Made by a program: the position numbers and the translations under genes
NCBI GenBank assembly: GCA_026417415.1
Contig: JAOADG010000008.1
Location: 496,001 to 560,000 of the forward strand
Direction of reading: 5' to 3'
DNA: 64,000 nucleotides
Source: a bacterium
Lineage (GTDB): Bacteria; Electryoneota; JAOADG01
The notes under the pieces: model-generated
Databases searched by the model: none
Seen by the model: the letters and a program-made list of their open reading frames with translations, nothing else
What the model was told of the DNA's origin: nothing
Shown: positions 15,686-58,520 of the stretch, piece by piece
How the letters are laid out: each line of letters begins with the position of its first letter
How positions within the stretch are numbered: the first letter of the stretch is position 1

Positions 15686-15758
15686 GGGCCTGTAGCTCAG
15701 GTGGGAGAGCATCACGTTCGCAACGTGGGGGTCAGCGGTTCGAACCCGCTCAGGTCCA
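15686..15758 (+). tRNA. tRNA-Ala (CGC)
   Basis: A complete 73-base cloverleaf: acceptor GGGCCTG pairs with CAGGTCC, including the G3-U70 wobble that identifies alanine tRNAs. The anticodon loop TTCGCAA gives anticodon CGC, reading GCG. The T arm carries GGTTCGAACC. The CCA end is not encoded. It is the first element of a tandem with the SRP RNA and dnaX. Confidence 0.95.
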
Positions 15759-15763
15759 CAAAA

Positions 15764-15882
15764 GCCGACCCAATGGGTTCGGTCTCGCGCAAGGTGTAAG
15801 GGCTTAACCCCGCTAGGCCCGGAAGGGAGCAACGGTCCGCTCAAGAACCTGTGCCGTGAGGTGCCGAACCTACTGGGTCGGT
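15764..15882 (+). ncRNA. ffs: Signal recognition particle RNA, small bacterial (4.5S-like) type
   Basis: The apical signature GGCCCGGAAGGGAGCAAC is the conserved Ffh-binding domain loop. The 5' end (CCGACCCA, 15765-15772) pairs with the 3' end (TGGGTCGG, 15874-15881), closing a single long hairpin of about 119 bases without an Alu domain. It lies five bases after the tRNA and 18 bases before the dnaX start, with no terminator between, so dnaX mRNA and SRP RNA probably come from one transcript. The same order (tRNA, scr, dnaX) is known from Bacillus. Confidence 0.93.
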
Positions 15883-15899: not shown

Positions 15900-17069
15900 G
15901 TGTCCTATATTGTATTAGCAAGAAGATACCGTCCACAAAAATTTTCTGAAGTCATTGGTCAAGAACACGTTACAGGTACGCTTTCTCGAGCCATTCAACT
16001 TAACCGAATTGGACATGCTTACTTGTTTGGTGGTCCAAGAGGAGTTGGAAAAACGACTGTAGCACGAATTTTAGCCAAAGCGTTAAATTGTACAGAAAGA
16101 AAAACTTCAGAACCTTGTAATGAATGTGATAGCTGCATTCAAATTACTGAAGGGAGAAGTGTAAATGTATTGGAAATTGATGCAGCATCCAATCGTGGAG
16201 TAGATGACGTTCGGAGTATTCGTGAAAATGTACGATTGTCAAGTTCTGCCGGTGCTTATCGAATTGTTATTGTGGACGAAGTCCACATGTTTACTAGAGA
16301 AGCGTTTAATGCCTTCTTAAAGACCCTTGAAGAACCTCCAGAGCACGTTGTCTTTATTTTAGCAACAACAGACGTTCATCAAGTTCCTCCCACAGTTTTA
16401 TCACGTTGTCAACGTTTTGAATTTCGACGATTGGATGGTATTGAGGTTGCTAACCATTTGATGAAAATGGCCCGTGAAGAAGGAATTTTATTAGAAACGG
16501 GTGCTGCAGCCATCCTTGCTAGAAGAAGTGATGGTTCCCTTAGAGATGGGATATCTCTTTTAGATCAAATGATTGCCTTTTGTGGACATCAAATTACTGA
16601 ATTAGATGTAATTACAGCGTTAGGTTTAATTAAATCGGATCGTTTTTTCGAAATCACTAAAATGATTTTGGATAAAAACGTTGAAGGTACATTTGCTTTC
16701 GTAGCTAACTTAATGAACACAGGTGCGGATCTTTCTGATTTTATCCGAGGATTGATGGAGCACTTTTTAATGTTATTAAGAGTTAATGTGACACATTCAG
16801 CAGAACAACTGCCATTGACTCCTGAAGAAAAAAATTGGTTTGAACAAACAGCACCGTTATTTCAATCAGAAGATCTGTTACGAATGCTTAAATTGACTTC
16901 TGAAACTGAGCTCATTTTACGAGGGAGTTACAATCCAAGATTGCGCATTGAATTGCTTTTGCAACGACTGGTTAGAATGGAACAAACCATTGATATCCAA
17001 ATATTGTTAAAACAGATTGAAGCTCTTGAAACAAAACCTTCAAATGTTGAGGTAAAAAAAAACCGATAA
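15900..17069 (+). CDS. dnaX: DNA polymerase III gamma subunit (zero-frame dnaX product)
   Basis: The zero-frame product is 389 residues of clamp-loader ATPase. Walker A GGPRGVGKT spans residues 44-52, the zinc cysteines are C64, C73, C76 and C79, Walker B is IVIVDEVHMF, and the sensor region TVLSRCQRFEFRR follows. The start is GTG at 15900 with GAGG seven to eight bases upstream; the protein begins MSYIVLARRYRPQ as the family does. The frame stops at TAA 17067-17069 just after a run of nine A, giving a short K-K-N-R tail, so this is the gamma form that lacks the polymerase- and helicase-binding domains. Confidence 0.93.
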   Translation: MSYIVLARRYRPQKFSEVIGQEHVTGTLSRAIQLNRIGHAYLFGGPRGVGKTTVARILAKALNCTERKTSEPCNECDSCIQITEGRSVNVLEIDAASNRGVDDVRSIRENVRLSSSAGAYRIVIVDEVHMFTREAFNAFLKTLEEPPEHVVFILATTDVHQVPPTVLSRCQRFEFRRLDGIEVANHLMKMAREEGILLETGAAAILARRSDGSLRDGISLLDQMIAFCGHQITELDVITALGLIKSDRFFEITKMILDKNVEGTFAFVANLMNTGADLSDFIRGLMEHFLMLLRVNVTHSAEQLPLTPEEKNWFEQTAPLFQSEDLLRMLKLTSETELILRGSYNPRLRIELLLQRLVRMEQTIDIQILLKQIEALETKPSNVEVKKNR

Positions 17070-17569
17070 ATTCTGAAACTGAAATCCAACATCCAATCTC
17101 ACGTACGAAGGAACTCAAACCTCAATTAGAAACAGATAACATTGGTGAAAAAGGATCTATAGTAAAAGAGCAATCATTACTTGAATTCACACCAGAAAAT
17201 CTTAACTTAGTAACCCTTAAAAACAATTGGAATTCAATTTGTAATGCAATTCGCAAATCTAATGCAGTAATTGGATCTTCTTTGAGTTCAACGACCATTT
17301 ATGATTGCCAAGACAATACATTAACATTAGAAGTTCTCAATAGTGTCCGATACGAGTTGATAAAAATACAAAAAGAGCAGTATGAAAAATGTTTATCGGA
17401 TTTTTTTAAAACAAAGATTAAAATTGCACTAAAGCTTGCAGAACCAACCAATACGCTTATTCAGAATCCAACAGTTGATGTTAATGCACAAATTGAAGAG
17501 TTGTCCCAAAAGAATCCAGCGTTAAAAAAATTAATTGAAATGTTCAAATTAAAACCACTATCGGAATAG
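15900..17569 (+). CDS. dnaX: DNA polymerase III tau subunit, made by slippage at A9
   Basis: Past the nine-A run at 17054-17062 the -1 frame is open without a stop to TAG at 17567-17569, adding 168 residues to give a 556-residue tau. The added part has a charged linker followed by a folded segment (LKNNWNSICNAIR, then YDCQDNTLTLEVLNSVRYE) that resembles the C-terminal domain of DnaX proteins, which holds the polymerase core and DnaB helicase. A -1 ribosomal slip, or insertion of one A (or loss of two) during transcription, would each make it. An assembly error is possible but less likely, because frame-shifted dnaX with an A run is a known mechanism. Confidence 0.85.
17054..17062 (+). promoter_or_regulatory. 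Programmed slippage site in dnaX (nine A)
   Basis: Nine consecutive A sit exactly where the zero frame ends (TAA five bases later) and the -1 frame continues into the tau domain. I see no stable stem-loop just downstream or a strong internal Shine-Dalgarno just upstream, which favours transcriptional slippage, as known for the A9 run of Thermus thermophilus dnaX. Confidence 0.8.
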
Positions 17570-43563: not shown

Positions 43564-43653
43564 AAAAACTCCTTTAGAATTGAAAAAAAAACAGTAACAA
43601 GTTATCGTATTCATTTGAATACTTCAAGCCCACATTTTGGAAGAAGGTGAAGA

Positions 43654-56217: not shown

Positions 56218-58520
56218 TTTCAAATTTAACTGAAAATTTACATTCGGTTACTGTTTCTATCCAAGGGATGACGTGTGCAGCATGTCAAGCACGCATTGAA
56301 AAAGTTCTTTCACATATAAATGGTATAGAACGGGTTGCAGTAAACCTATTAACAAATACTGCTTCTATAGCCTATAATCCATCTATTATAGGTGTAGATG
56401 AAATCATTCAAAAGGTGCAGGAAATAGGTTATTCAGCGAGTTTGCAGGACCATACAGATTTATTAACAAATAAAATTGATCTTAGTAATCAAGAGCAAAA
56501 AGAGTACAATTTGCTAAAAAACAAAGCGATTACTGCACTTATAGTTGCAATACTCACGATGTTTATATCCATGATCTTGATGATTAACGAAGAGAATAGT
56601 TCGGATCCGTTTATCCATAGGATGATGTTATGGTTGCATCCGCTGCATAAAATTTTTGTTTTTTTTTACCAATTGGTATCCCCTCACTTTTTACATGTTT
56701 TGCTAATCATTTTAACAACCTATCTAATTGGCTTTGTTGGACGTGACTTTTATATCAAATCTTGGTCAGCAATTCGTTCATTATGGGCGGATATGAATGT
56801 CTTGATCGCTATTGGAACAGGATCTGCTTATTTCTATTCGCTTATTATTTCCATTCGTTTTATAACTGGAATTTCAAATTCTAATGAAATCTACTACGAG
56901 GCAATTGCATTCATAGTAGCATTTATACTGATGGGGAAGACACTTGAGTTTCGATCAAAATTACTTGCGACACGTTCTATTAAGAAACTGATGGATTTAC
57001 AACCTGCATTGGTACGTACAATCTCAGAAAATCAAGAAGTCATCAAACCATTAGAACAGATCATTCCAGGTGATAGAATACTTATTCGTCCTGGTGAAAG
57101 AATTCCTTTGGATGGAATCATTCTTTCGGGTGAGACAACCGTAGATGAATCAATGTTAACAGGTGAATTTTTACCAATTGAAAAGAAATTATCGCAAAAG
57201 GTGTATGGTGGTACTTTAAACATCACTGGAGTAATAACCATTCGAGTCATTGCAGATGGCACTTCAGGATTTCTTGCAAACATCGTTCGTATTGTACAGT
57301 CAGCACTTTCAAAGAAACTCAAAATTCAAACTATTGCAGATAAAGTCGTTGGATATTTTGTTCCAATTGTTTTATCCATTGCTGCATTTACATTTATTTA
57401 TTGGTATTGGATTATAGAAAGTAGCAATCTGTTTTTAGCATTGCGTTATGCTATGGCGGTTCTGATAATTGCTTGTCCATGTGCAATGGGATTGGCTATT
57501 CCTACTGCAATCATGGTTGCATCTGGTCGAGCTGCTGAGTTCGGGATATTGATACGAAATGGAAACATTTTAGAGGTGTTACGTTCTGTCAATATAATTT
57601 TTTTTGATAAAACCGGAACAATAACAAAAGGGAAACCAAAAGTCGTTCATATTGTCGGAAAGATTGATAAAGATAATATGGATTTGATTTTTTCGGTAAC
57701 AAAAAATTCGTCTCATCCGTTCAGTGTAGCTATCAATGAGTATTGTTCAAAGATGGGTGCCGATGAAATTCCTTTAGAAATGTTTCAATCTATCTCAGGA
57801 AAAGGTTTGAAAGCGTATTGGAATAAAAGAAGCATTCTCATTGGCAGTAAATCATTTGTGTTAGAAAGTTCTAAAATGGAAACGAATTTTTTTCAAAGTG
57901 AACATGACGAATTTATCCAAGTGTTGGTTGCTATTGATGGGGTTGTATCTATAGTGTTTTTTCTTGATGATCAATTGAGAGATGAAGCAATAGATGTAAT
58001 AAAGTTCCTAAAAGGTCATCATATAGAACCAGTTTTACTGAGTGGTGATAAAGAGCAAGTAGTAAAAAAAATCGCAAAGCAGATCAATGTAAAAAATTAT
58101 TATGCTGAATTATTGCCAGAACAAAAGCAGATCGTAATTCAGCAGTATAAAGAATCTGGTTATTGTGTAGCGATGGTTGGTGATGGAATAAACGATGCTC
58201 CAGCATTAGCAACGGCAGATGTAGGGATAGCTATTGGTGATGGGACAGACGTAGCCAAAGAAACGGGAGATGTGATTTTACTTAGGGGGAATATTACATT
58301 AATAGAAAAATTGATCCGTTTATCGAAAAAGTCATTCGCTATAATGTACCAAAATTTAATTTGGGCTTTTCTTTACAATTCAATTAGTATTCCCATTGCA
58401 GCAGGTGCAATAAGTAAAACCTATGGAATAGAATTAAGTCCAATTCTTGCCTCTGCTGCAATGGCTTTTAGTTCTGTAAGTGTTGTGACCAACAGTTTAC
58501 GACTGTTAAGGTTCAAGTAA
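56214..58520 (+). CDS. copA: Copper-translocating P1B-type ATPase
   Basis: A 768-residue inner-membrane pump that expels Cu(I). One N-terminal heavy-metal domain holds GMTCAAC (C21, C24). The membrane metal site is CPC (C421-C423), the phosphorylated Asp is in DKTGTITKG (D465), the TGES-like loop is LTGEFLPIE, the nucleotide HP motif is SSHPFS, and the hinge is GDGINDAPA. Length and order are those of bacterial CopA. Its only neighbour in the operon is the rubredoxin-like gene, which is unusual. It ends two bases before the convergent glnN stop. Confidence 0.95.

Follow-up and report, generated by a model that had tools for sequence, protein, structure and literature searches.

A nine-adenine run at the gamma/tau boundary of dnaX as a probable transcriptional slippage site in a bacterium of the Electryoneota

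The dnaX gene carried by the window (the whole 64,000-nucleotide stretch of DNA analyzed here) contains a run of nine A (A9) where its gamma-encoding frame gives way to the tau tail, and we consider this run, with a probability of about 0.7, to be a programmed transcriptional slippage site, at which the unslipped mRNA would yield gamma and an mRNA with one additional A would yield tau. The earlier note had proposed that a nine-A run divides gamma from tau in this gene; the run is present exactly as described (Table 1), while slippage itself is a reading of the sequence. RNA polymerase would stutter on A9 to produce dnaX mRNAs with 9, 10, 11 or more A. The 9-A mRNA would be translated as far as the TAA at 17067, giving gamma (389 aa); mRNAs gaining one A in effect (10 or 13 A) would encode tau (about 557 aa), in which a linker joins the gamma core to a C-terminal replisome domain; and 8- or 11-A mRNAs would run into the TGA at 17074, giving a near-gamma product. 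We infer that polymerase is the slipping machine, as well as the direction and efficiency of slippage and the presence of both proteins in cells.

Table 1. Features of dnaX and its boundary run, in window positions
Feature	Position	Strand	Description	Basis
dnaX zero frame, gamma product	15900..17069	+	389 codons (389 aa); GTG start, TAA stop	
Run of nine A, candidate slippage site	17054..17062	+	begins at the third base of codon 385	sequence
TAA ending gamma on unslipped (9-A) mRNA	17067..17069	+		sequence
TGA ending the third frame (8 or 11 A)	17074..17076	+	would end a near-gamma product	sequence, stop distances
Tau-specific tail	17063..17569	+	168 codons; in frame on a 10-A mRNA	profile and codon usage
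Folded alpha/beta domain predicted in the tail	17207..17440	+	tail residues 49-126	AlphaFold2 model

The zero-frame product matched the Pfam families DNA_pol3_delta2, DNAX_ATPase_lid and DNA_pol3_gamma3, and scored 427 bits against the NCBIfam model dnaX_nterm (TIGR02397; cut-off 250); by these Pfam and NCBIfam matches the AAA+ core, the lid and domain III of DnaX are present, and the tau-specific C-terminal domain is present according to sequence profiles, with moderate support from its fold. The zero frame ends ...GTT GAG GTA AAA AAA AAC CGA TAA, with the bases GGT immediately before the run and CCGATAAATTC after it. Four bases separate the run from the TAA, so the earlier description of a TAA "five bases after" the run holds if the TAA is taken to start at the fifth base. 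The gene thus has a two-ORF, poly-A layout, in which the zero frame closes just past the poly-A and the -1 frame carries the tau tail. Directly 5' of dnaX, on the same strand, lie tRNA-Ala (CGC) and a small SRP RNA (window 15686-15873), the latter predicted at 15776-15873 and ending 26 bases before the GTG.

As had been claimed, the -1 frame is open for 168 codons (17063-17566, with its stop at 17567-17569) and encodes a tau-type C-terminal domain. The tail (P0002) matched the NCBIfam DnaX model PRK14971 (E 2e-5; tail residues 34-163 on positions 484-611 of 614), and reached 58 bits against a profile built from the tails of 196 other DnaX proteins, where 2,000 shuffled copies gave at most 11 bits. 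In codon usage it is consistent with the -1 frame, at 0.17 bits per codon (5-95% range of real genes, 0.14-0.45), while the other two sense frames across it scored -0.30 and -0.15. AlphaFold2 confidently predicted an alpha/beta domain at about tail residues 45-125. Replisome domains are among its nearest solved folds: DnaA domain I (4tps_D, Z 10.3), DciA (8a3v_C, Z 7.3) and, from E. coli, tau (5fku_E, Z 6.5; 2aya, E 0.12). Ribosomal proteins reach scores similar to those of the last two, for which reason the fold is taken as supporting evidence only; with so moderate a resemblance to E. coli tau, the tail is identified by its sequence profiles. Judged from its sequence, the tail is a real DnaX/tau C-terminal domain. 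Independent translation of the tail was considered and rejected: it has no Met codon before residue 160, and the lone alternative start, a TTG at 17282, would cut into the folded domain.

Genes of this layout are known. Antonov et al. (2013; PMC3711429) described 17 two-ORF dnaX genes in which tau is reached via a frame change, 12 of them with poly-A, and Chloroherpeton thalassium provides a nine-A case among the latter. As in those genes, gamma is templated in the window, poly-A lies at the boundary and a -1 change is needed for tau; most of the published runs, however, have ten A, whereas the window gene has nine and belongs to a different lineage. We therefore regard the window dnaX as a further case of the two-ORF poly-A type. 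Two results go beyond published accounts, as represented in the open-access literature: (i) a reversal of the templated and slipped roles within one family at a shared run, and (ii) an enrichment of runs of at least nine A that is confined to the boundary.

The earlier note had judged the gene "closer to the Thermus mode" than to that of E. coli. In Thermus thermophilus the templated frame yields tau and slippage yields gamma (Larsen et al. 2000, as related in PMC1088944 and PMC5009743). According to those papers, Thermus dnaX resembles the window gene in having nine A at the gamma/tau boundary, nearby off-frame stops, no need of a stem-loop and two lysine tRNAs in the genome, but its roles are reversed: in the window gamma is templated, and slippage would make tau. 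Thus, while at least nine A at the boundary and early stops in the off frames are found in the window gene, as in a Thermus-type gene, its templated frame ends at the TAA at 17067 without tau, whereas a sister gene (see below) combines the same features with a templated tau. The Thermus slipped mRNAs are described in PMC5009743 as carrying one or more additional A in diminishing proportion, which fits the present proposal, since the gain of one A is exactly what would yield tau from the window gene. In what these sources relate, slippage was measured for Thermus dnaX; for the window gene it is deduced. E. coli dnaX likewise encodes both DnaX forms, the ribosome shifting frame at the gamma/tau boundary, but the window gene has neither the A_AAA_AAG heptamer nor a stem-loop, and it is tau, not gamma, that needs the shift. 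The comparison with Thermus therefore stands as regards poly-A slippage in place of an E. coli-type heptamer and stem-loop, and fails as regards which product is templated.

To place the run in a wider context, we compared 235 dnaX genes from many lineages. These were the best matches to the window DnaX, drawn mostly from draft or metagenome assemblies and in part interrelated (e.g., L073/L074 and L084/L088), so that the figures below measure enrichment rather than prevalence, and 25 in 235 should not be taken as an unbiased estimate of frequency. Against an expectation from each gene's own codon usage, codons 356-400 were enriched in A-runs of at least nine, with 25 seen where 6.4 were expected (P about 2e-8). 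A7 and A8 runs in this interval were not in excess (12 and 8 seen; 13.6 and 7.6 expected), nor were runs of at least nine at codons 1-355 (1 seen, 2.3 expected) or 401-560 (14 seen, 14 expected), and the excess is therefore specific both to the boundary and to lengths of nine and above. Both non-tau frames reach a stop within 13 codons in 20 of the 23 run-bearing genes with a complete tail, but in only 33 of 191 genes without a run (Fisher P 3e-11). The runs are 9, 10 or 11 A long, all three phases are represented, and gamma is templated in seven genes (L002, which is the window gene, L020, L072, L097, L162, L226 and L281). An apparent A15 at the site in L042 (G026:C237) was left out of these counts as an assembly artefact mimicking a slippage site; the bases preceding it are presumably Illumina adapter.

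Polymerase slippage would account for the threshold at nine, the indifference to phase and the stops in both other frames; a threshold near nine is known for this process (PMC1088944, PMC5009743). Antonov et al. (PMC3711429) took a direction that differs among orthologues as the criterion for transcriptional realignment, by which the mixed phases and lengths of 9, 10 and 11 A likewise favor realignment during transcription.

The same-family genome available for comparison (G001, the sister; 70% identical over the DnaX core) also has A9 at the same codon of dnaX, two bases further along in the ungapped alignment (CAA AAA AAA ACG), which provides the alignment of the A run in a sister genome that the earlier note had called for. 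There, however, tau (452 aa) lies in the templated frame; one A fewer, or two extra, leads to an almost immediate TAA (CGC TAA), and one A extra to a stop eight codons on. Because the same-codon A9 has the opposite frame assignment, it is the run, not the frame, that the two genes have in common, a reversal that sets this case apart from the two-ORF genes of Antonov et al. The claim that the window is an independent case was consequently too strong, given the sister's run and the occurrence of runs of at least nine A in about 1 in 9 of the sampled dnaX genes. Elsewhere in the phylum, L005, L010 and L011 have A9 with tau templated, and L020 has A11 with gamma templated. The sister's tau tail (L003 2668-2856) is only 63 aa long and lacks most of the tail domain; its C-terminal 25 residues (YPALQELKDKFGLIAIPD) are similar to those that close the window tail (NPALKKLIEMFKLKPLSE).

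The most serious alternative, though an unlikely one, is that a homopolymer was undercalled and the true run has ten A, in which case tau would be templated and slippage would give gamma, the ordinary Thermus layout. In-frame A10 with early stops in both other frames occurs at the boundary of at least six surveyed genes (L084, L088, L133, L158, L252 and L260), in the same phase in L133, L158, L252 and L260; the templated tau of the sister points the same way, as does the absence of any A/T run above nine in 464 kb of the window's assembly (the window plus a 400-kb background sample of the same contig, G000:C38:1-400000). Against an undercall, the genome is 100% complete with contamination of 0.01, and of the 388 A/T runs of seven or more in these 464 kb, just five stand next to a switch of reading frame, four of them at ordinary ends or starts of neighboring genes. 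As dnaX is the only protein split at any of them, no systematic homopolymer error is visible. An undercall would, moreover, leave the two-product switch in place and swap only the roles. The earlier note had held that a correction to ten A would refute slippage, a view we do not share: such a correction merely exchanges the templated product, and at least six dnaX genes combine an in-frame A10 with early stops.

Sense runs as long as A9 are very few in the genes of this genome. Relative to synonymous codon shuffling, sense A-runs of 6, 7 and 8 in genes of the 400-kb sample occur about as expected (381, 143 and 52 seen; 357, 139 and 62 expected), whereas those of nine or more are depleted roughly fifteenfold (2 seen, about 31 expected). 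Baranov et al. (PMC1088944) read avoidance of this kind as pointing to selection against slippage by the polymerase; undercalled homopolymers could account for part of the depletion. Two nine-T runs on the sense strand of the window leave their genes unsplit: one (43583-43591) falls close to the beginning of a nucleotide-sugar dehydrogenase-like ORF, probably ahead of the point where that gene truly starts, and the other (56659-56667) coincides with codon 149 of an ORF resembling metal-transporting P-type ATPases.

Less probable again is programmed -1 ribosomal frameshifting on A_AAA_AAA (or A_AAA_AAC), which would produce tau from unslipped mRNA. The sequence GTA AAA AAA AAC does hold slippery heptamers in the right phase, and, as A9 contains A_AAA_AAA, some ribosomal -1 shifting in the window dnaX is possible. 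Such frameshifting, however, requires a heptamer in a single phase and commonly gains from a stimulatory structure, and it fits poorly here, where no structure is found at the run: as the earlier note had remarked, there is no clear stem-loop, the stretches downstream of A9 giving z = +0.1 to +1.4. The E. coli-type A_AAA_AAG is likewise absent at the run, the next base being C. The only Shine-Dalgarno-like bases nearby, GAGG at 17049-17052, abut the run, whereas the corresponding stimulator of E. coli dnaX stands at a set distance from the slip site. The survey excess, too, concerns runs of at least nine, not A7, A8 or phased A_AAA_AAG; few sampled genes have the latter in shift phase at the boundary, and most of these occurrences lie inside the long runs. 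The genome encodes two lysine tRNAs (UUU and CUU), a circumstance that Atkins et al. suggested disfavors the ribosomal route in Thermus (PMC5009743). In favor of the ribosomal reading, the same source mentions a gamma-templated candidate with E. coli-like stimulators in Chlorobium phaeobacteroides.

That the gene is simply broken, with tau lost to a frameshift mutation and the tail a relic, is very improbable: although the sister, which keeps a 63-aa tail without most of the domain, indicates that this domain may be dispensable in the family, the window tail stays open throughout its 168 codons, uses codons much as genes do and has a recognizable DnaX profile and fold, and the run sits exactly where other dnaX genes carry runs.

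Returning to transcriptional slippage, we lean modestly toward a broader reading, in which poly-A slippage at the boundary is a widespread and recurring bacterial route to two DnaX forms. Selection would keep a run of at least nine A and the early non-tau stops but leave the templated frame free, such that gain or loss of a single A flips lineages between templated tau (as in the sister, L158 and L260) and templated gamma (as in the window, L020, L072, L097, L162, L226 and L281). It has long been asked if bacteria need a short DnaX at all and, if so, for what reason. The retention of a run of at least nine A and of off-frame stops at one place in dnaX, across many unrelated genomes, speaks for selection on both forms. 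In practice, gene finders will miss tau when annotating the window genome and others of this type. Nine surveyed genomes (L061, L063, L064, L075, L077, L095, L096, L116 and L135), several of them titled as Patescibacteria-type lineages, encode a DnaX of only about 353-375 codons with no poly-A run of at least nine at the boundary, and apparently make gamma only.
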